Below are positions 9,026 to 41,456 of a stretch of 64,000 nt of DNA, in pieces (the first letter of the stretch is position 1; every line of letters starts with the position of its first letter). The notes under the pieces were generated by a model that made no database searches, had not been told where the DNA came from, and saw only the letters and a program-made list of their open reading frames with translations. The DNA comes from an uncultured Bacteroidota bacterium (lineage in GTDB: Bacteria; Bacteroidota; Bacteroidia; Flavobacteriales_F; PHOS-HE28). The DNA is taken from assembly GCA_902826215.1 (NCBI GenBank), contig CADEDY010000020.1, forward strand, positions 1 through 64,000. The letters are read 5' to 3'. The position numbers and the translations under genes were made by a program.

Positions 9026-9200
9026 GGGGCAAAGTTCGGCTTATCTTCTGGCCGTGCCGGTTGACGATCTTCTCGTCAGTGACGACCGGAGCCGTTCTGT
9101 TCAACCTTAACCCATGTATCGTGAAGTAGTAGGCAACACCACCGTATCAACACGCTCTTCAACACCTCGGGTTCCCGCGGTAAGCGCGATCTTTCCGCCG

Positions 9201-11492
9201 ATGAACGGGGAGGTCTACGAGGAAACCGAAATGGCGACGATCGCCGCGCGCTTCGTCAACAGCACGAACCGCCACGTTTTCCTCACGGGCAAAGCCGGCA
9301 CCGGCAAGACCACCTTCCTGCACAAGCTGGCGGCCAGCACACACAAGCGTTTCGTCATACTCGCCCCCACGGGCATCGCGGCGCTCAATGCGAAGGGCGT
9401 CACGATCCACTCGCAATTCCTGTTGCCGTTCGGGTCCTTCGTGCCGGAGAAGCAATTGCCGGCGGACATCACCCACGGCAGCTTCCACGATCAGGACACG
9501 CTCACGAGGCGGCACCCGCTCAATGCGGCACGGCGTCAGGTGCTGCGCGAAGTGGATCTGCTCATCATCGATGAAGTGAGCATGCTGCGCGCGGACCTGC
9601 TGGATGCGATCGACTTCCGCATGCGGGCCGTGAGGCAGAACCGGTACCAGAGCTTCGGCGGCGCGCAGGTGCTGCTGATCGGTGATCTGTACCAATTGCC
9701 ACCGGTGGTGAAGGACGATGAATTGCGCGTGTTGCAGCGCTGGTATGCGAGCCCGCACTTCTTCGAGAGCAAGGTGATGCGCGAATTCGGTTACGCGCAC
9801 ATCGAACTCGACAAGATCTTCCGGCAGCAGGACGGCGGCTTCATCCACATCCTCAACAACCTTCGCAACAACACGGTGACGGCCGAGGATGTCGCTACGC
9901 TGAACAGCCACTATCAAGCCAATATCCCGGACTCCGAGAGCGATGGCGTGATCACGTTGACCACCCACAACTACAAAGCCGATGAACTGAACCAACGCGC
10001 GTTGGCGAAGTTGCCGGGCAAGGTATACACGTACGAAGCCGAGGTGGATGAGGACTATCCCACGAGCATGCAGCCCGTGTTGGACCGCATCGAACTGAAA
10101 GTGGGTGCGCAGATCATGTTCGTGAAGAACGACATGGAGAAGGCTTACTTCAATGGCAAGTTGGCCAAGGTGGTAGCGTTGGAGGAGGATGGCATCACCG
10201 TGCAGATGTTGGATGGGGTGGGTGAAGGAGGAGCGGAGTCGGGCGCCCCCTACAAACTGAAACGCGAGATCTGGGAGAACAAGCGGTACGTGGTGAATGC
10301 CAACACCAAGGAGCAGCAGGAAGAAGTGCTCGGCACTTTCGCGCAGTACCCGATCAAGCTCGCTTGGGCCATCACCGTGCACAAGAGCCAGGGCCTCACG
10401 TTCAACAAGGCCATCATCGATGTGGGCAACGCATTCGCCCCGGGTCAGGTGTACGTGGCGTTGTCGCGCTTGCGGTCCCTGGATGGATTGATCCTTCGCA
10501 CCCGGATCGACACCAGCGTGGTGAGCAGCGATCGCGATGTGGTCGCCTTCACCCAACGCGGCGTGGAACAAGAGCCGCTCACGAACCAGTTGAAAGCGCA
10601 CCAACGCGAGTACATGCGGTTGCTCTTAGCGGGCACCTTCGACTTCAGCGACCTGCTGCGGAAAGTGGAGTACACGCAGAAGGACCATCCGGAGACCGCC
10701 GAGTTCGAGGACGAGAGCATGAAGACCGCCTTGCAGATCCTTCGGGATCAGCTGCGGACAGAGGAGGAGAACACGCAGAAGTTCCGCAACCAGCTGATCC
10801 GGTTGATGCACGAGGAGAAGCGGGAGGAGCTGCTGGAGCGGATCGAGAAGGGCGGTGCCTATTACGACAAGCTGCTGCAAGCGAGCATGCGCGGCCTCTT
10901 CCAGCACATGGCCCAGGCCGAGTACTTGAGCCGCGTGAAGGAATACACCAACGCGTTGAAGGAGATCGATGGCATGTTGATGAAGAAGATCAGCGCCATT
11001 TCGAAGGTGGGCTACATCGCGACGTGCATCCTGAACGGAGAGGAGGTGAAGAAGCGGCCCGAGATCGAGAAAGGACTGACCGAGAAACGTGCGGCGATGG
11101 TGGGCGAAATGCGCGCCTGGGCCGAAGAGCACCGTCCGAAAGCCAGTGGAAAGACCGGTCGGAAACGCAAGACCGGCGAGAAGAAGGAGAAAGCGGAAAA
11201 GGGAAGCACGTATGCGATCACCTACGCGCTGCGGAAGGAAGGATTCACCGTTGAAGAGATCGCTGCGAAACGCTCCATGGCGAAGAGCACGATCGAAGGG
11301 CACTTCTCACGTGGCATCGCCGAAGGCACCATCGACATCGATGGTCTGATGCCGGAGGACGAACGCGACACCATCGCCAATTGGATGCGCGAGCACACCG
11401 ACCAGAACCTGAACGACGCACAGAAACACTTCGATGGCCGCTTCGGATACGGCCAACTGCGGATGGTGCAGTCCTGGTTGAAGAAGGGGTAA
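9201..11492 (+). CDS. Pif1/RecD-like SF1 helicase with C-terminal HTH domain
   Basis: 763 residues from the ATG at 9201; an upstream in-frame ATG at 9114 adds 29 residues of unlikely composition. Walker A is LTGKAGTGKTTFL (near residue 27), Walker B LLIIDEVSML (near 125), and the later helicase motif is WAITVHKSQGLTF (near 395), followed by GQVYVALSRLRSL (near 425), in the order of Pif1/RecD superfamily 1 helicases. Residues 480-650 are charged and partly coiled-coil; a basic linker near 665-685 leads to a winged-helix HTH_40-like domain (EGFTVEEIAAKRSMAKSTIEGH) ending in YGQLRMVQSWLKKG. It probably unwinds 5'-tailed DNA or R-loops in replication or repair. Confidence 0.9.
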   Translation: MNGEVYEETEMATIAARFVNSTNRHVFLTGKAGTGKTTFLHKLAASTHKRFVILAPTGIAALNAKGVTIHSQFLLPFGSFVPEKQLPADITHGSFHDQDTLTRRHPLNAARRQVLREVDLLIIDEVSMLRADLLDAIDFRMRAVRQNRYQSFGGAQVLLIGDLYQLPPVVKDDELRVLQRWYASPHFFESKVMREFGYAHIELDKIFRQQDGGFIHILNNLRNNTVTAEDVATLNSHYQANIPDSESDGVITLTTHNYKADELNQRALAKLPGKVYTYEAEVDEDYPTSMQPVLDRIELKVGAQIMFVKNDMEKAYFNGKLAKVVALEEDGITVQMLDGVGEGGAESGAPYKLKREIWENKRYVVNANTKEQQEEVLGTFAQYPIKLAWAITVHKSQGLTFNKAIIDVGNAFAPGQVYVALSRLRSLDGLILRTRIDTSVVSSDRDVVAFTQRGVEQEPLTNQLKAHQREYMRLLLAGTFDFSDLLRKVEYTQKDHPETAEFEDESMKTALQILRDQLRTEEENTQKFRNQLIRLMHEEKREELLERIEKGGAYYDKLLQASMRGLFQHMAQAEYLSRVKEYTNALKEIDGMLMKKISAISKVGYIATCILNGEEVKKRPEIEKGLTEKRAAMVGEMRAWAEEHRPKASGKTGRKRKTGEKKEKAEKGSTYAITYALRKEGFTVEEIAAKRSMAKSTIEGHFSRGIAEGTIDIDGLMPEDERDTIANWMREHTDQNLNDAQKHFDGRFGYGQLRMVQSWLKKG
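11454..11491 (+). repeat. Direct repeat copy 1 (38 bp) at the 3' end of the helicase gene
   Basis: This copy encodes the last residues of the helicase (LRMVQSWLKKG). It is matched at 37 of 38 positions by 12087-12124. The two copies flank the lipoprotein gene at 11497. Confidence 0.95.
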
Positions 11493-11496
11493 TCCC

Positions 11497-12081
11497 ATGA
11501 ACGGCGCACTAAGGGTCGGAGTTGCACTGCTGCATTGGCTCATCTTGCCTTCGTTGTTGGTGGGTTGTATTCGCACGCGCCCCTCGGATGCGCCGACCTC
11601 GGAGAGCGAATGGATCGGCCGTCGTCCTTTGGATACGGCGCAATTGCTCCAAGAACTGGACCTGCTCGAGATGGGACGCGCGGGCGATGTTGAAGGTGGA
11701 ACTATCACGTGGCGTGAAGAAGTCGATACCATCCTGGTCCGGTATGTTGCCTTTGCGTGCACCTGCCCGGACCACGAGGTTGTTGATACCGCTGGCCATG
11801 AGGGCATAGCTGCGTTCTACGTTCAGCCGATGGGAAACTGTCCAGAGATACCGTGGCGGTCACAGGTGTCGGGGAATACCTTCGAGTTGATCGGTCAACG
11901 TTCGCGGATCAAGATGTGGCCCGATGACAGCATAGGGCCTCCTGAACTTGGATACCATTTCAGGTACTTCTCCTTTCGGATCATGCATCCGTATCGCGTC
12001 TGGGGCCCACACGTGCCCACCGAGGACCAGGATGGAGATGGATACTCGGATACGGAACCAACCCTTCTCGAGGTCAGATAG
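11497..12081 (+). CDS. Putative lipoprotein of unknown function
   Basis: 194 residues. The signal peptide MNGALRVGVALLHWLILPSLLVGC ends in a lipobox (LVGC), so the protein is probably lipid-anchored. The body has an acidic N-terminal linker, a CTCPDHEV stretch near residue 87 (two cysteines, possibly metal-binding or disulfide-forming), WREEVDTILVRYVAF, and a C-terminal EDQDGDGYSDTE that resembles a calcium-binding DxDxDG loop. The start codon is 4 bases after the helicase stop. The gene sits between two 38-bp direct repeats, so it looks like an insertion or the product of a local duplication. No family recognised. Confidence 0.75.
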   Translation: MNGALRVGVALLHWLILPSLLVGCIRTRPSDAPTSESEWIGRRPLDTAQLLQELDLLEMGRAGDVEGGTITWREEVDTILVRYVAFACTCPDHEVVDTAGHEGIAAFYVQPMGNCPEIPWRSQVSGNTFELIGQRSRIKMWPDDSIGPPELGYHFRYFSFRIMHPYRVWGPHVPTEDQDGDGYSDTEPTLLEVR

Positions 12082-12086
12082 GCAAG

Positions 12087-12124
12087 CAACTGCGGATGGT
12101 GCAGTCGTGGTTGAAGAAGGGGTA
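12087..12124 (+). repeat. Direct repeat copy 2 (38 bp), orphan copy of the helicase 3' end
   Basis: It repeats the helicase 3' end with one mismatch and ends in TAG instead of TAA. No helicase frame precedes it; similarity fades just upstream. It is probably a footprint of duplication or insertion. Confidence 0.9.
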
Positions 12125-12153
12125 GTTGTGGAGAGCAGCGTCGCGCCTGCAGG

Positions 12154-12534
12154 CTATTCCAACGGGATGATCCGTCCTTCCATCCATTTCGAAATGCCGT
12201 GCACATCCATTGCACCGGTTGCGACCTGGATCACCATGTCGAACTCTTCATCATCCGTCGCACGCAGATCCAGGTCATGTGTCATCAAGCTCAACCTAGC
12301 GAGCACATAACCTGCACGCTTGTTTCCGTCGACGAAAGGGTGGTTCATTATCACACTTTCCAACAAAGCGGCCGCTTGGTCTTCTGGTCGGGGATAGAGC
12401 AGGGCGCCATCGAAGCTCGCCAGCGGCCTAGCCAACGCCGCCTCCAGACCACCTCGGTCACGTAGGCCGTGTGAACCACCCGTGGCGTCAATGAGCGCCG
12501 TATGAATGGACAATGCCTCTTCGAAAGAGATCAT
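12154..12534 (-). CDS. Fic/Doc-family toxin (death-on-curing type)
   Basis: 126 residues, the size of a Doc toxin. The Fic signature is NHPFVDGNKRAGYV (near residue 64), with the catalytic His, the Asp and the anion-binding GNKR. Upstream lies GLRDRGGLEAALARP, characteristic of the Doc branch. Doc proteins phosphorylate EF-Tu, while Fic proteins transfer AMP; the motif alone does not separate these here. The start overlaps the antitoxin stop by 4 bp (ATGA), the usual coupling of an antitoxin-toxin operon. It lies downstream of the rtcB gene on the same strand, about 240 bp away. Confidence 0.88.
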   Translation of the reverse strand: MISFEEALSIHTALIDATGGSHGLRDRGGLEAALARPLASFDGALLYPRPEDQAAALLESVIMNHPFVDGNKRAGYVLARLSLMTHDLDLRATDDEEFDMVIQVATGAMDVHGISKWMEGRIIPLE

Positions 12535-12719
12535 TTGGCCAGTCGCAGCAGCAGGTCGCGCTTTTCGTCCAGGATCCGCTTCAATCCGACCACGCGCTTC
12601 TGTTCTTCGGCGCTCCTGCCTTGAAATCCCTGCAGATAGGCCAAGACCTCCTCAAGAATGGGATCGGGCACTTCGTCCAGTTTCTGCTGGATGGCCGCTT
12701 TCAGTTCTTTCGTGCTCAT
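12531..12719 (-). CDS. Antitoxin of the Fic/Doc module
   Basis: 62 residues, first gene of the pair. It is highly helical and charged (MSTKELKAAIQQKLDEVPDPILEEVLAYLQGF), the pattern of small Bacteroidota antitoxins with a short N-terminal DNA-binding segment and a disordered tail that masks the toxin. It shares 4 bp with the toxin gene. I do not see a clear Phd/YefM fold, so the assignment comes from its size, position and coupling to the toxin. It may also repress the operon. Confidence 0.75.
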   Translation of the reverse strand: MSTKELKAAIQQKLDEVPDPILEEVLAYLQGFQGRSAEEQKRVVGLKRILDEKRDLLLRLAK

Positions 12720-12774
12720 GGTCCGTCAAAGATAAGTTGATGGGGTCGGTACGGGTTGGTGCTGAGACATCCCT

Positions 12775-14190
12775 TCAATCCTCCGCCGCGCTCCCATCGC
12801 CGCACATGCGCACCACTTTGGGCGTGAACGATCCGATCACCTCCACCAGGTCGCGTTGGCTGTCCATCACGGTACGGATGTCCTTGTAGGCCATGGGTGC
12901 TTCGTCCAAGCCACCGCCGACCAAGGTGATGCCGTGTTGATCGAGGTGGATCTTCACTTCGCTCGGTGAGATCGTTTCCTTGGCGCGGGTGCGGCTCATG
13001 GTACGACCTGCACCATGGCTGGCGCTGTTGATGCTCTCTGCCATTCCGGTGCCACGCACGATGTATCCGGGTGCCGTCATGCTACCGGGGATCACACCCA
13101 GCACGCCTTTGCCTGCGGGCGTTGCGCCTTTGCGATGTACGATCACTTCACGTCCATCATGCATTTCCTTCCACGCGAAGTTGTGGTGGTTCTCCACCAT
13201 CGCGGCGGGCTTTTCACCGATCGCTTTCGCAATGCGCGCATGGATCTGGTGGTGACATGCGGACGCGAAGTCACCGGCCAAGTTCATGGCCAACCAGTAC
13301 TCCATGCCTTCTGCGCTGTCCAGTGAAAGCCACGCGAGGTTCTGCGCATCGGCCGGCAACTTGCACAGCTCTTTCGCCACGCGTGTGTAGTGCGCAGCGA
13401 TGCCCGCGCCCATGCCGCGCGAGCCGCTGTGCGAGAGCAGTGCCAAATAGGCGCCGACGGGAAGTTCGAATTCATTCTGTGCATCGGCGATCTCCACCAC
13501 GCCGAATTCCACGAAGTGGTTGCCGGAGCCGCTGGAACCGATCTGCTGCCAAGCGCGGCTTTTCAAATGTTTCACGACAGGAATGGTATTGAACTCGGAA
13601 CGCTCCAGTACTTCATGGTCCATGCGCTTCTCATGTACCGCGCGACCGAAACGGGTGTGCTCGGTAAGTAGGCGCTTGTGGTCCTCACGGTTCTTCTCCA
13701 ATACGGATGGGTCGATGCGGAAGATGCTCAAGCACATGCGGCACCCGATGTCCATGCCCACGCCATACGGGATCACCGCGTTCTCCACGGCAAGCACGCC
13801 GCCGATGGGCAGGCCATAGCCTTGGTGCGCATCGGGCATGAGGGCACCGCCGACGGTCACGGGCAGTTTCATCGCCACCTCCATTTGGTGGATCGCACCT
13901 TGTTCGATGTGGTCCGCACCATACGTGCGGTAGTCCTTGCGGGCCACCAGTTCGTGTTGTGCTTCGTTCTTGCGGTCGCGACCGGTCAAGGCGTCCGCGA
14001 TGGGCGCATAGTGTTCGTGTTCGCTGTACGAAGCCGGATCGGCAAGGATGGAGCAGAGCAGTTCAAGTGCCTTTTCTTCGCTCCACTTGCGGTGGTGTTT
14101 CAGCATCACGTTGATGGCCAGGCCGATCGCGCGTCCTTCGGGGTATCCGATGGCGATGAGGTCCTTGCCGTGTAGTTTCAAGCCTTTCAT
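12775..14190 (-). CDS. rtcB: RtcB-family RNA ligase
   Basis: 471 residues from the ATG at 14190; the open frame runs on upstream through tRNA-like genes and was not used. RtcB landmarks appear in order: MPDAHQGYGLPIGG (near residue 118), MDIGCRMCLS with the metal-binding Asp and Cys (near 144), GSSGSGNHFVEFG (near 225), ALLSHSGSRGMG with a metal His (near 250), and HGAGRTMSR carrying the guanylated His (near 392). RtcB joins RNA 2',3'-cyclic-phosphate or 3'-phosphate ends to 5'-OH ends using GTP and Mn2+, repairing RNA cut by ribotoxins and ligating split tRNAs. The first 60 residues lie outside the core motifs. It is the last gene of the tRNA-like array, and the His-type tRNA-like gene begins 24 bp upstream. 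No archease gene is in the window. Confidence 0.95.
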   Translation of the reverse strand: MKGLKLHGKDLIAIGYPEGRAIGLAINVMLKHHRKWSEEKALELLCSILADPASYSEHEHYAPIADALTGRDRKNEAQHELVARKDYRTYGADHIEQGAIHQMEVAMKLPVTVGGALMPDAHQGYGLPIGGVLAVENAVIPYGVGMDIGCRMCLSIFRIDPSVLEKNREDHKRLLTEHTRFGRAVHEKRMDHEVLERSEFNTIPVVKHLKSRAWQQIGSSGSGNHFVEFGVVEIADAQNEFELPVGAYLALLSHSGSRGMGAGIAAHYTRVAKELCKLPADAQNLAWLSLDSAEGMEYWLAMNLAGDFASACHHQIHARIAKAIGEKPAAMVENHHNFAWKEMHDGREVIVHRKGATPAGKGVLGVIPGSMTAPGYIVRGTGMAESINSASHGAGRTMSRTRAKETISPSEVKIHLDQHGITLVGGGLDEAPMAYKDIRTVMDSQRDLVEVIGSFTPKVVRMCGDGSAAED

Positions 14191-14213
14191 GGTTGTTGCA
14201 AAGTTGGTTCTCG

Positions 14214-14285
14214 GTCGGATGATGGGGATCGAACCCATGCTAACTGCGCCACAACCAGCCGTGCTACCAGTACACCACATCCAAC
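14214..14285 (-). tRNA. tRNA-like gene, His-type (anticodon GTG)
   Basis: The 5' acceptor TTGGATG pairs over 7 bp with CATCCGA. A G precedes position 1 and the discriminator is C, the G-1:C73 identity pair of tRNA-His. The D-stem is GTGT/GCAC with a GG-containing loop, and the T-arm is ATGGG-TTCGATC-CCCAT. The anticodon stem GCTGG/GCAGT has a G-G mismatch next to the loop TTGTGGC, and the variable loop is 4 nt (TAGC). No CCA is encoded. It begins 24 bp upstream of rtcB and 6 bp after the Phe-type gene. The deviations suggest an accessory or decoy tRNA rather than the main tRNA-His. Confidence 0.75.
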
Positions 14286-17795: not shown

Positions 17796-19379
17796 TTATC
17801 GCACCTTCATCATGCTCTTCACCTGCTGTTGCGACCCGTTCTGCACGCGGCAGAAGTAGGCACCTGCGGGCATGTCGCCGAGGTCGCAAGCAACCGTGTG
17901 TTGGCCCGGAGGGAGTTCGCTGTTCACCAGTTTGCGCACGACCTGACCAGCAGCATCGAAGACCTGCACCATCACGCGTCCGCCGTACGTTTCGAAGCGG
18001 ATCGTGGTGCTTTCGGTGAAGGGGTTCGGGAACACTTCCAACAACGAAGTGCCTGCTCCTTGGTTCAGCGCATGTACGCCGGTGTCGATGCAGCCGGTCG
18101 GATCAACGAGCGAGAGCGGCTGGTAGGTATCGAGCAGCACTTGGTCCACCTCGGTCTGCTCCAAGCAGAACCAATCGCGCAGCACGCTCGCATACACGCT
18201 GCGGAAATCGTATTGCATCGGAATGTTCGTGTTCGTGTCCACGTTCGCAGGTATCTCGGGGTTGGTGCCGAGCATGCCTGGGATCAAATTGGTGCCGAAG
18301 AGGAAGAGAGGGGCCGCAGCGCCGTGATCCGTGCCCACGGAACCGTTGCTCTTGACGCGTCGACCGAATTCAGAGAAGGTCATGCCGATCACACGGTCAT
18401 CCACCCCGAGCAGTTGCAGGTCATCCTGGAAGGCCCGCAGGCTGTCGGAAAGACCTTGGAGCAACGTAGCATGCGCGCCGGTGGCGGTGTCCCCAGCCAC
18501 CACTTGTTGCGCGTGCGTATCGAAACCGTCCATGCTCACCCAGTAGATCCGTGTCTTCAATCCACCGCAGATCAATTGCGCGACGATCTTCAGTTGACCG
18601 GCCAACTCCGCGCCGGGCTGGATACCGGTCGGATAGAGCGTGCTGAGGTTGCAGCTGGGTAACGCCGCAGCCTCGATCACGTTGCCATAGAGATCGGCTT
18701 GGCGTTGCACCTGCCGCGCAAAGTCGAGCTTCGATCCTTTGCAGTCGGCGGTGATCGGATCGTTGAACATGTTGCCTGTCAGATCCAGGCCATCTTGTGT
18801 GTTGTAGATGGAAGCGCCCATCGCCACACCCAGGTGCTGCAAGCCAACGGTTACTGGACCACCGATGCGGATCGCGAGCGGATCAGGCATGGTGTCGTTC
18901 GGGAATCCAATCGGGTAGTTGGGATATTCCTGATGCAAGTAGCGTCCGGCCCAGCCGCTATCCAAAAGCTCATCGCTGTTGGCGCCGGTCTCCCAGATGT
19001 CGGTGCTGCGGAAGTGCGAGAAGTCCGGATCCGGATAGCCGACACCTTGCACCACGGAGAGCTTGCCTTCGTTCCACAGTTCACGCATACCGCCCATGGC
19101 CGGGTGGAGGCCGGTTGCGCCTCCGAGACCTTGTAGGGAAAGCACTTCGTTCTCGGGGATCAGCACATTCGCACGCGCGGTGGACAGGTTGCTGTACTGG
19201 TCCAACGGGATCACGGTATTGAGGCCATCGTTGCCACCGTAGAGCTGAACGATGACCAGCACACGGTCCTGTGCGGAGCGATCCAGCAAGGGACCGAGCA
19301 TGGGGTTGCCGAAACCACGAACGGCGAATCCGCCGACGGAAGCGGCGGAGAGGGAGCGGAGGAACGAGCGACGACGCAT
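17796..19379 (-). CDS. DUF1501 protein with T9SS sorting domain (copy 1)
   Basis: 527 residues from the ATG at 19379; a start 20 codons upstream would overlap the neighbour. The N-terminus MRRRSFLRSLSAASVGGFAVRGF resembles a twin-arginine or lipoprotein-type export signal. The DUF1501 core is marked by VLVIVQLYGGNDGLNTVIP (near residue 40), YWVSMDGFDTHA (near 265) and MTFSEFGRRVKSNGSVGTDHG (near 320), the layout of an alkaline-phosphatase-like hydrolase fold. The last 80 or so residues (EVFPNPFTESTTIRFE to the C-terminus) are a type A T9SS sorting signal. It partners the DUF1800 gene immediately upstream. The substrate is unknown. Confidence 0.9.
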   Translation of the reverse strand: MRRRSFLRSLSAASVGGFAVRGFGNPMLGPLLDRSAQDRVLVIVQLYGGNDGLNTVIPLDQYSNLSTARANVLIPENEVLSLQGLGGATGLHPAMGGMRELWNEGKLSVVQGVGYPDPDFSHFRSTDIWETGANSDELLDSGWAGRYLHQEYPNYPIGFPNDTMPDPLAIRIGGPVTVGLQHLGVAMGASIYNTQDGLDLTGNMFNDPITADCKGSKLDFARQVQRQADLYGNVIEAAALPSCNLSTLYPTGIQPGAELAGQLKIVAQLICGGLKTRIYWVSMDGFDTHAQQVVAGDTATGAHATLLQGLSDSLRAFQDDLQLLGVDDRVIGMTFSEFGRRVKSNGSVGTDHGAAAPLFLFGTNLIPGMLGTNPEIPANVDTNTNIPMQYDFRSVYASVLRDWFCLEQTEVDQVLLDTYQPLSLVDPTGCIDTGVHALNQGAGTSLLEVFPNPFTESTTIRFETYGGRVMVQVFDAAGQVVRKLVNSELPPGQHTVACDLGDMPAGAYFCRVQNGSQQQVKSMMKVR

Positions 19380-19398
19380 GTGATCCTGTTTTCGAGGT

Positions 19399-21045
19399 TC
19401 AGAAAAGGTGACGTTCGGCGGCTTTCTGCATGTCTCCAACGAGCCAGCGCAAGATGTCGGGTACCAATTGAGCGGTCATGCTCGTCGTGTTGGGATCGGT
19501 GATGTAGAGCTCGTAGGCATCGCTCCAATAGATGTCGTTAGACTGACCGAAGAGGAGGTAACTCTGCTTCAATTGTTGCTTCACCGCTGCCGAGATCGGG
19601 TTCACATAGAGCAGTTCCACCAGTTGATCGATCAACTGGTTCGGATCCGACGGGTTCTGCAATTGCTGGGTGAAGGCAACGAGGTCCAAACGGAAGGTAA
19701 GGTCCGCGTTGGAAGGCAGCACCGTGTCCGAAGGCGTGTCGATGGTGCCGTACACCACGTTGACCAACACGTTGTTCCGCGCAGGATAGGTGGCCGTATC
19801 CAACCACAACTGATCATAGCTCGGATGGAGGTAATAGGCTGGCCAACCCGCCACGTTCGGTGGTTCGGCGAGGTTCTGTCCGGCGTAGTTCACCAAGAAG
19901 AAGATCTCGAGGTGCACCAAATGATCCGCTTCGGTGAGGCCTGGATCGGGTAACGGGAAGCCGAACATGCGGACGTCACCGATCAGCAGATCCGCAGGGC
20001 TCTTGATCATGCAGCCGCGCACATCGGCACTGAAGAAATGCTCGCTGGTGAGCAGGGCGCGCAATACAGTGAGCATCTGATCCGGCGCATCCACGTTCTG
20101 ACGAAAGAGATCGGCGAGCGACTGGATCACATCGGTCTCCACTTCAGGCGCGATCTCACCATGGACGAAGAAGTGATAGAGTTCGCGGCAGATGTGGATT
20201 GCACATTGATCATTCGCGAGGATCATGTCCAGCAACGCATTCAACTCGGTTTCACCAGCGTTGGGGCCGCTTTGACCCGTGATCAGCGTGTTGTTGAAGA
20301 AGGCCGAAAATTGCTTGTCCGTGGTGGTGTGGAACAAGGGCCTGAAGATCGTGGTCGGCAGCGTTGGGTTTCCGCCGACTTCCTCTTGAATGCCCCACCC
20401 GGTGAGCACGCGCGCAGCCGCTTGCACATCGGCTTCGGTGTAGCCGCTGCCTTGGCCAAGTGTGAACAGCTCGAGCAGTTCGCGACCGTAGTTCTCATCC
20501 GGTGCAAAGGAGACGTTGAACTGTCCATTGAGGTAGATCAGCATCGCTGGCTCCAAGGTCACATCGTGGATCAGCGAGCGGAAGTTGCCGCCGCAGTTCG
20601 TGCGCAGCAATTGGTTCATGCGATAGAGCGCTTCGGAATTGAACACCACACTGAGCTGCGTCGGCATGTGGTTATGCCAGAAGAGCGTGAGCTTTTCCCT
20701 CATGTTCCGATCCTGTCTGGTCAGTTGTTGTGCCCACCAGGTTGCCCAACTTGCAATGCGCTCTTGGATCACATCCGGGTCGTCCGGTGGGTTGCGCGGT
20801 GTGTCCACCCACGTACTGCCGAAAAGAACGGCCGGATCGATCGCATTGGGGTCACCATTCACCGCATAGCTCTTCACCGGAGGTGTGGTGTTGTTGGTGA
20901 AGGTCAGCAGCTCGTCGATCACCTGTTCCAAGGACATTCCCGCGAAGTGCTCAAGGTCGGCAGGGCTTGCTCCGAAAAGTGATCGGCGCAACAGGTGCTG
21001 GAGTTCTGGTCTTCCGAAAGGCCCGGTGTAGGGTGTCAGTGGCAT
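19399..21045 (-). CDS. DUF1800 protein (copy 1)
   Basis: 548 residues from the ATG at 21045. DUF1800 features: HLLRRSLFGASPADLEHFAG (near residue 17), FWHNHMPTQLSVVFN (near 121), ENYGRELLELFTLGQGSGYTE (near 183) and VAGWPAYY (near 395). The protein has no obvious classical signal peptide. DUF1800 and DUF1501 genes form a widespread couple of unknown function, thought to act in the cell envelope or on extracellular polymers. It ends 19 bp before the DUF1501 start, so the pair is an operon. Confidence 0.9.
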   Translation of the reverse strand: MPLTPYTGPFGRPELQHLLRRSLFGASPADLEHFAGMSLEQVIDELLTFTNNTTPPVKSYAVNGDPNAIDPAVLFGSTWVDTPRNPPDDPDVIQERIASWATWWAQQLTRQDRNMREKLTLFWHNHMPTQLSVVFNSEALYRMNQLLRTNCGGNFRSLIHDVTLEPAMLIYLNGQFNVSFAPDENYGRELLELFTLGQGSGYTEADVQAAARVLTGWGIQEEVGGNPTLPTTIFRPLFHTTTDKQFSAFFNNTLITGQSGPNAGETELNALLDMILANDQCAIHICRELYHFFVHGEIAPEVETDVIQSLADLFRQNVDAPDQMLTVLRALLTSEHFFSADVRGCMIKSPADLLIGDVRMFGFPLPDPGLTEADHLVHLEIFFLVNYAGQNLAEPPNVAGWPAYYLHPSYDQLWLDTATYPARNNVLVNVVYGTIDTPSDTVLPSNADLTFRLDLVAFTQQLQNPSDPNQLIDQLVELLYVNPISAAVKQQLKQSYLLFGQSNDIYWSDAYELYITDPNTTSMTAQLVPDILRWLVGDMQKAAERHLF

Positions 21046-35553: not shown

Positions 35554-37827
35554 TTACTGTCCGCAGTCCTCGTCCACCTGCCCGTCGCAATCGTTGTCCA
35601 AACCGTCGCAGATGTCTTCGGCACCTGGCAAGGACGTGGGGTCGTTGTCGTTGCAATCAGCGGAAGCCGGCACGCCATCGCCATCTTGGTCCACCACGCC
35701 CGTGCACGCGGCGAAGGCGGCGTGCGCACCGCTGCTGATGGCGCAAAGGTTGCAATCCATGCTGCCAGCGACAACGCCGTTGCTCAGCAGCCAAGGGATG
35801 CATTCGGCCGAGCAGCTGTTGAGCACCGTGTACGCACGCTCAACGGCGCATTGCAGGCAAGTGGGTGCGATGGGTGCGAAGGGTTGCATGTTCGCACGCA
35901 GGCAATCCCACGCGGCTTGGCCGGTAAGCCCTTGGCAATCGCTCACCGCGGTGCCCGTGGTGTTCCACAGCAGGTGGTAGTTATCGTCCAACCATTGGCG
36001 GTCCGAAGGTGAGCACGAAGAGCAACCAACGCCCGGCCCTGCGAGCGGGAATACAGCGGGGTCCTGATCGTCGCAATCGGTTCCGAGGAACACGAAGCCG
36101 ACCGGCTGTTCGCAGGCTTGCACGCTCACGGCCGGGTTCCCGAAACCATCGGCGTCCAGATCCTCGAACCAGGTGGTCGCGTTGTCCACGGTACCGTCGC
36201 AATCGTTGTCCGAGCCGTCGCCACAGATCTCCGCAGCGCCGGGGAAGACATCGCTGTTGGCATCGTCGCAATCGCCGTCGCACGTTGTGAAACCATCCAG
36301 ATCGTTGTCCGTGCAAGGGGCGCAAACGCCATCCTCGTCCACTTGTCCATCGCAGTCGTTGTCGAGCGCGTCGCAGGCCGTTTCCGTTGGCTCATAGACC
36401 GGGGAGCCGATGAAGTAGTCACTGGTGGCGCAGGTGAGCCAAGTGCCACCCACGCATAGGTCGGCAGTCTTCATCGCACCATTGCACACCCCGTTCTGGT
36501 TCTCACAGAATACCAGCACCAGACTAGGGTCGGCCGCATCGGTGAGGCCATCGCCATCGTTGTCAATACCGTCGCAGATCTCCGCAGCGCAACCCTCGTC
36601 CACAAAGCCGTTGCAATTGTTGTCGATGCCGTCCGCGCAGATCTCGGCCGCGTTCAGATGGACCCCGGGATCGTTGGGTCCACAATCGGAACCATCAGCC
36701 CAACCGTCGCCGTCGCTATCGGCGACCCCCATGCATTGCAGGAATGTCGCATCGCAGCCGGCCGCGTCGATGCAGGCTTGGCAGGCGGCACTTCCGCTGA
36801 TGCATTGCGCCAAGCAGTTCGCGGTGATGCAGTTGTAGCGGTCGGCGAGGCATTGCAGGCAATTGGCCCCCAAGGGCACAAGGCCGCTAACGGCCAATTG
36901 ATCCGCTAAGCAAGCACCGGCATCGGGTGTGTTGAAGCAGTTGAACCAAAGTCCGTCCGCCTGCTGGTAGAGGAAAGCTTGGTTCTGGTCCACCCAAGCC
37001 GCTTCCGCCGGCGAACAGAATTGGCTGCACCCTTGGCCGGGGAAGACGTTCACGTCAGCATCGTCGCAATCCGTTCCATCCGCCACGTGGCCGGGGGGCG
37101 CCGAACAGGCACTGATCGTAATTGCACTATCTCCATAACCGTCCGCATCGGTGTCCGGGTGCCATTCCACAAAGGCCCCAAGGTCGGTGTTGTTGTCCGG
37201 CACGCCGTCGCAATCATCGTCCACTCCGTTGCCGCAGAGTTCCACGGCACCGGGGTTGGTGCTCGCCACCGCATCATCGCAATCGACTTCGCCGCAACCG
37301 GGGCGATCGTAGAAACCATCGCTGTCCAGATCCAAGCACCCGCCGTTAGCCGCACTCATTCCGGGTTGGATCAGGTAGCACCCATTGCCGTAGTGTACTG
37401 TATCTCCCAACAGCGATACCGTTGGGCAGGCCATGCTACCCGCGTGCAGCGCGTAGGGCACGCTCAGCATCTGGCTGGTCCCGATGTCCGTGTAGCTGGT
37501 GCCGCCCGTGGCGTCCAGTTCCACTTGCAGAAAGTGTGCGGCGCTGCCCCAAGGCACACCGGCGAAGCTGCCTTGCACGGCGCTCCCTTGCCCCACCGAC
37601 AAGGTGAAAAGGCCAAGGGCATTGGTGCTTGTGGTGTGCACCTCCTGATAGGCCACAGGCCCATTGGCCGTGCCACTGTGCAGGGTAAACCGCACACCGA
37701 TGGCCTGGCCGGCCAAGGCATCGCCGCTGGCATTGCGCGCCACCGCTTGGTAGTTGAAAGCCTGTGGCACCTGGGCGGCGAGGGCGCCACAGAACAGGAC
37801 CACGGAGAACAAGAAAGGAATGCGCAT
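35554..37827 (-). CDS. Secreted MopE-like cysteine-repeat protein
   Basis: 757 residues from the ATG at 37827, where signal peptide MRIPFLFSVVLFCGALAAQ begins; the frame is open further upstream but non-coding in character. Residues 25-145 form an N-terminal domain common in Bacteroidota secreted proteins (QAFNYQAVARNASGDAL). The rest contains about ten CDGxDNDCDGxxDE/N repeats of the MopE/putative-metal-binding family (near residues 180-757), with additional Cys-rich segments. The last repeat ends the protein (CDGLDNDCDGQVDEDC). The repeats are thought to bind metal or calcium, and the protein is probably surface-exposed. Confidence 0.88.
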   Translation of the reverse strand: MRIPFLFSVVLFCGALAAQVPQAFNYQAVARNASGDALAGQAIGVRFTLHSGTANGPVAYQEVHTTSTNALGLFTLSVGQGSAVQGSFAGVPWGSAAHFLQVELDATGGTSYTDIGTSQMLSVPYALHAGSMACPTVSLLGDTVHYGNGCYLIQPGMSAANGGCLDLDSDGFYDRPGCGEVDCDDAVASTNPGAVELCGNGVDDDCDGVPDNNTDLGAFVEWHPDTDADGYGDSAITISACSAPPGHVADGTDCDDADVNVFPGQGCSQFCSPAEAAWVDQNQAFLYQQADGLWFNCFNTPDAGACLADQLAVSGLVPLGANCLQCLADRYNCITANCLAQCISGSAACQACIDAAGCDATFLQCMGVADSDGDGWADGSDCGPNDPGVHLNAAEICADGIDNNCNGFVDEGCAAEICDGIDNDGDGLTDAADPSLVLVFCENQNGVCNGAMKTADLCVGGTWLTCATSDYFIGSPVYEPTETACDALDNDCDGQVDEDGVCAPCTDNDLDGFTTCDGDCDDANSDVFPGAAEICGDGSDNDCDGTVDNATTWFEDLDADGFGNPAVSVQACEQPVGFVFLGTDCDDQDPAVFPLAGPGVGCSSCSPSDRQWLDDNYHLLWNTTGTAVSDCQGLTGQAAWDCLRANMQPFAPIAPTCLQCAVERAYTVLNSCSAECIPWLLSNGVVAGSMDCNLCAISSGAHAAFAACTGVVDQDGDGVPASADCNDNDPTSLPGAEDICDGLDNDCDGQVDEDCGQ

Positions 37828-41323: not shown

Positions 41324-41392
41324 CGTCATTCCGGGCTTGACCCGGAATCTTGTAAGTGGGTGACGGGATTCCGGGTCGAGCCCAGAATGACG
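41324..41392. repeat. 26-bp inverted repeat with a 17-bp loop
   Basis: Arms 41324-41349 and 41367-41392 match at 24 of 26 positions (arm begins CGTCATTCCGGGCTTG). It lies between two minus-strand genes and could form a long hairpin, as mobile palindromic elements or terminators do. Confidence 0.8.
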
Positions 41393-41456
41393 TTGATGGC
41401 CGGAATGACGTTGACGCCCGGAATGACGTCGATGGCCGGAATGACGTTGAGCTTGG
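41385..41456. repeat. Four 18-bp tandem repeats
   Basis: Unit GAATGACGTTGATGGCCG repeated four times (41385, 41403, 41421, 41439); the last unit is diverged. The unit begins with the end of the neighbouring inverted repeat, so the array probably arose by slippage from it. Unit length 18 is a multiple of 3, but no gene is coded here. Confidence 0.85.

Follow-up and report, generated by a model that had tools for sequence, protein, structure and literature searches.

Introduction

Tyrosine-integrase islands are characterized by a direct repeat, a restored gene end and an original gene end that is displaced outward. Target-site duplications are usually shorter than 38 bp. In homology-facilitated illegitimate recombination, one homologous anchor is combined with one illegitimate join, by which foreign DNA enters without a recombinase. 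This last process has reportedly been described in natural transformation, by de Vries and Wackernagel in 2002 and by Meier and Wackernagel in 2003.

Small sequence differences bounded by repeats have also been described in genome comparisons. Passages of PMC2884548 deal with short variable segments, 10–18% of which carry direct repeats at the base, and predict that these segments arise mainly by illegitimate recombination. Repeat-bounded indels of Haloquadratum walsbyi are interpreted, in a section of PMC3119063, as deletions across repeats, most of which are shorter than 20 bp, and an excerpt of PMC3784515 shows tandem duplication by transformation.

Here we describe a locus within a 64,000-nucleotide stretch of DNA (hereafter referred to as the window; contig CADEDY010000020.1 of assembly GCA_902826215.1) from an uncultured Bacteroidota bacterium, in which an insert of about 595 bp with one likely gene inside is bounded by two copies of the 3′ end of a helicase gene. 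It fits a repeat-flanked small variable segment in that it is gene-sized, belongs to one lineage, has the repeat at both edges and contains no mobility gene. With the microdiversity loci, as far as those passages of PMC2884548 describe them, it shares a short strain-specific segment and direct repeats at the base; those loci were compared within species and measure 20–500 bp, whereas here a whole gene was gained and the comparison is between species only. As in the Haloquadratum walsbyi indels covered by that section of PMC3119063, a strain-specific sequence has a repeat at both ends, with one copy of the repeat where the sequence is missing; the indels there are read as deletions, whereas the neighbourhood and the nearest relatives of the present locus favour gain. 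Integrase-borne islands at gene 3′ ends likewise have a gene-end direct repeat on both sides, a restored gene end and an empty site in relatives, but the insert described here is tiny and lacks an integrase, and a second species has the gene without the repeat. Unlike a transposon with a target-site duplication, the insert has no terminal inverted repeats at its edges, and its gene is present in one copy in the genome. Anchoring by homology on one side, with an illegitimate join on the other, is what we propose below for this locus. The repeat has the look of a genuine but ordinary scar, left by the recent gain of a gene, and not of a new type of mobile element.

Results

The helicase 3′ end is repeated beyond a putative lipoprotein gene

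The left flank of the insert is a plus-strand gene (9114..11492) encoding a 792-aa PIF1-like helicase with a C-terminal HTH_40 domain (Pfam PIF1, E 8e-26; HTH_40, E 1.1e-21), the 3′ end of which constitutes the first copy of the repeat. It is followed on the same strand by an ORF of 194 aa (11497..12081), a small accessory gene for a putative lipoprotein with a CTCPDHEV motif and an LLVGC lipobox, the latter read by eye. On the right, the insert is flanked by a minus-strand gene for a Fic/Doc-family protein (12154..12534; Pfam Fic, E 2.7e-17). An overlapping 62-aa ORF (12531..12719, minus strand), which yielded no Pfam match at its cut-off, may from its position encode an antitoxin partner of Fic. 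The gene beyond, rtcB (12775..14280, minus strand; Pfam RtcB, E 2.1e-81), provides the right-hand syntenic anchor.

Repeat detection in the window revealed a direct repeat pair on the plus strand, with copy 1 at 11454..11491 and copy 2 at 12087..12124, identical at 37 of 38 nucleotides and 633 nucleotides apart from start to start. Copy 1 corresponds to the first 38 of the final 39 nucleotides of the helicase gene, the TAA stop codon of which occupies 11490–11492. Copy 2 terminates in a TAG (12123–12125), and its reading in the helicase frame is QLRMVQSWLKKG followed by this stop. The original prediction, made from the sequence of the window, had placed the start of the lipoprotein gene four bases past the helicase stop, and the spacer read there is TCCC; five bases (GCAAG) lie between the TAG stop of the lipoprotein gene and copy 2. 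It had also stated that the helicase 3′ end recurs with one mismatch past the lipoprotein gene, and this proved correct when measured against simulated sequences and the rest of the window: the best match to the 38-mer was 25/38 across 200 simulated 3-kb sequences, and the runner-up within the 64-kb window reached 23/38. The 37/38 repeat is well above the chance level. A whole-genome search for a 20-base core of the repeat, with up to three mismatches allowed, returned the two copy sites only. As for transposon-type termini, three inverted-repeat pairs were reported in the interval 10500–13500, none of them at the edges of the insert.

Two other repetitive features were seen in the window. Six imperfect copies of a 38-nt unit, unevenly spaced, are present at 35572–37232; we would guess that they are TSP3-like repeats in a coding sequence. 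A short tandem array with an 18-bp period occupies 41380–41450.

Relatives have empty sites and single helicase ends

The window genome (G000; 4.16 Mb in 51 contigs) belongs to a genus set of 45 genomes, itself included, 30 of which have a completeness of 90% or more and a contamination of 5% or less. Relatives of the helicase were found in 51 of the 58 genomes of the first set examined, and helicase ends in 15 of the 17 genus genomes searched. An empty site in the helicase 3′ flank, which the idea of an insertion had called for, was found in three relatives, G060, G003 and G061, all without the lipoprotein gene, rather than the gene and both repeat copies in every relative. In G060 and G003 the helicase, Fic and rtcB genes are arranged in the order and on the strands seen in the window; the genes beyond also agree, and there is a single helicase end. 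In G061 the helicase is followed by rtcB, with no gene seen between them. The Fic neighbour is 84% identical to the window copy in G060 and 57% identical in G003, and the neighbour corresponding to the 62-aa ORF is 85% identical in G060.

We read the 3′ flanks of 44 helicase loci, that of the window included, over at most 1.5 kb downstream of each. A duplicated helicase end was found at none of the 43 relative loci, where the last 39 bases of each gene matched the downstream sequence at 18–24 of 39 positions at best; this count includes short flanks (86 bp in G065, less than 700 bp in G025 and G058) and three genomes (G013, G014 and G042) in which the reading frame did not end at the usual tail motif. 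Helicase stop and fic stop are separated by 36 bp in G003 and by 37 bp in G060, and the TAG of copy 2 and the window fic stop by 28 bp. Because copy 2 is spaced from fic much as the true helicase end is in these two relatives, we read it as the original helicase end, now displaced.

Accessory genes come and go in the helicase–rtcB interval, with Fic and the small overlapping ORF present in G060, Fic at least in G003, and both absent from G061. Further along the window, on the minus strand, 17796–19439 and 19399–21045 form an adjacent gene pair, relatives of which occur as two tandem pairs in the matching regions of G060, G061 and G007.

The lipoprotein gene is present in two genomes of the genus

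The lipoprotein gene was found in two of the 45 genus genomes, G000 and G007, and a profile search agreed with this result. The G007 homologue is 47% identical to the window lipoprotein, of which the window genome has one gene copy. In both occupied genomes the lipoprotein gene lies directly behind the helicase gene; in G007 the gap between them is 12 bp and no repeat is present. Weak matches in G064 and G034 were set aside, as they are interrupted by stops, face long open frames on the opposite strand and are absent from the profile search of the same 45 genomes.

Outside the genus, relatives of the lipoprotein were found in three of the 395 genomes of the class examined (L097, 1438–2103; L098, 1252–1908; L096, about 1486–2088), with 24–27% identity by local alignment. 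The two remote relatives that were aligned share a CxCP motif, in the fuller form Y-x-x-Y/F-A-C-x-C-P, as well as a G-P near the C-terminus. The lipoprotein and its remote relatives form a small family without a Pfam name, scattered across the class. The helicase gene was not found beside the three remote relatives within the roughly 1.0 to 1.8 kb examined on each side. A D12-class DNA methyltransferase neighbours one of them, and an AbiEii-like gene, just under the Pfam cut-off, another; such neighbours fit the character of an accessory gene.

Neither Pfam nor PADLOC assigned the lipoprotein to a family. A structure prediction from two sequences had a mean pLDDT of 32.6, too low to be of use, and the one match to a solved structure by sequence, with an E value of 0.85, was set aside. 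From the lipobox and the conserved cysteines, our guess would be an envelope lipoprotein with a bound metal or a disulphide bond.

The original prediction had suggested an insertion with target duplication, as made by integrating elements that target gene ends. A site-specific element or cassette would target and restore the helicase 3′ end, with the two 38-bp copies as attL and attR and the recombinase supplied in trans. A direct repeat, a restored gene end and an original end displaced outward are what tyrosine-integrase islands produce, and the same gene is found at the same gene end in two species. However, the insert contains no recombinase; the five Phage_integrase-family matches in the genome all lie off the contig of the window; the genome has no further copy of the 38 bp; G007 lacks the repeat and the other loci lack a duplicated helicase end; and no match to the lipoprotein gene was found in the viral, plasmid and phage collections. 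The insertion part of the prediction is supported by the empty sites in relatives. A site-specific element finds little support beyond the repeat, and we regard it as improbable. More improbable still is a minimal cassette of one gene, free of any recombinase and mobilised in trans, that has repeatedly entered this PIF1-type helicase 3′ end, with its last 38 bases as the attachment site, G000 being a fresh and G007 an old insertion with a decayed repeat.

With both ends kept, the window looks like the left half of the helicase–lipoprotein arrangement joined to the right half of the helicase–Fic arrangement. An assembly chimera, in which two strain alleles (helicase–lipoprotein and helicase–Fic) were joined at the repeat, would account for this resemblance of the two halves to two alternative neighbourhoods, and the assembly is in 51 contigs and possibly metagenomic. 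Nevertheless, the join from TAG through GCAAG to copy 2 occurs in neither of the neighbourhoods seen, so that it would have needed separate reads; compared with usual read lengths, 38 bp is short; and the stated completeness and contamination of the genome are 100% and 0.15%. We consider such an artefact highly unlikely.

Both repeat copies carry changes private to the window genome

The single mismatch between the copies is a TCG in copy 2 and a TCC in copy 1. The matching codon is GCG in each of the six close relatives compared (G003, G021, G060, G061, G064 and G065), and GCG is found at this codon in only 23 of the 42 tails with the motif. Copy 2 thus keeps the third base of the codon of these relatives, which we counted in favour of copy 2 as the original end. 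The helicase stop is TGA in G060, G064 and G065 and TAA in G061, and TAG as the older helicase stop is backed by G003 and G021 only. This polarity, in which copy 2 would be the older end, is argued from a single mismatch and a single base of a stop codon.

Changes private to the window genome are found in both copies, with SWLKKG in place of the AWVKKE-like ends of the relatives. Since these changes are common to the two copies, the duplication is recent, younger than the split from G060 and G003. In an rpoB tree of the 30 of the 45 genus genomes for which an rpoB locus was recovered, G061 and G064 not being among them, G060 is placed beside G000 (81/96), and G003 and G065 fall in the same clade (99/97). 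G007 lies far outside this clade, with many species lacking the lipoprotein gene in between. The helicase 3′ end of G000 is closest to that of G060 (82–83% DNA identity over the last two segments), against 66–75% for G007. Segment comparison gave no sign of a mosaic helicase gene, in which the end would have resembled that of G007. With no trace of a foreign segment in the helicase 3′ end, any donor would have been a near relative.

The position of G007 bears on a reading in which the helicase–lipoprotein order is ancestral and most species have lost the lipoprotein gene. The second helicase end would then have arisen in the lineage of the window in one of two ways: either the end was duplicated in tandem together with the lipoprotein gene, and the extra lipoprotein copy was later deleted, or there was an exchange with an allele of the same species that lacks the gene. 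That the helicase directly precedes the lipoprotein gene in both genomes having it argues for this reading, as does the wider neighbourhood shared by G007, which has the genes at 17796 and 19399 beyond. Given the distance of G007 in the rpoB tree, it would require many losses, including those in G060 and G003, and its tandem version would require two events; the low GC3 of the lipoprotein gene also speaks against it. We regard an ancestral order as possible but rather unlikely. The remnant of a tandem copy, which the original prediction had offered as its second option, would be conceivable at the cost of this extra deletion step.

Gain of the gene in the lineage of the window is the simplest reading of the distance between G007 and G000 and of the intervening species without it. 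The third-position GC contents of the lipoprotein gene (0.636) and fic (0.622) are the lowest among the 13 genes compared (0.698–0.844 for the others), and we counted these low values for gain.

Discussion

We favour, with a probability of about 0.55, the explanation that the lipoprotein gene was recently gained in the lineage of the window by homology-assisted illegitimate recombination, a mechanism that we infer from the arrangement of the locus. The source of the incoming fragment would have been a near relative with the helicase–lipoprotein gene order, and the fragment would have brought in a helicase 3′ end and, behind it, the lipoprotein gene. One side of the fragment would have recombined by homology inside the helicase gene, and the other side would have been joined illegitimately, just past the lipoprotein stop, onto the recipient's own helicase end. 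From left to right, the product would consist of copy 1 at the end of the helicase gene, the lipoprotein gene, copy 2 as the original end now displaced, Fic and rtcB. The adjacency of helicase and lipoprotein genes by itself in G007 makes a donor with that order plausible. Among the 45 genus genomes there is neither such a donor nor a strain closer than G060 and G003, and the joins are not visible in the making.

ComEC and DprA are needed for DNA uptake in many bacteria, and ComEC-family and DprA-family genes are present in the window genome. They are compatible with DNA uptake, without proving competence, and transformation may be the route by which the fragment arrived.

Were the cassette reading correct, the known integrating units would gain a very small class; the evidence does not point in that direction. 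For a bacterial genus about which little is known, the locus offers one clean gene gain next to a core gene, and the scar of that gain can still be read. The three states of the helicase–rtcB interval (empty, with Fic, and with the lipoprotein gene plus Fic) make it a small hot spot for accessory genes.
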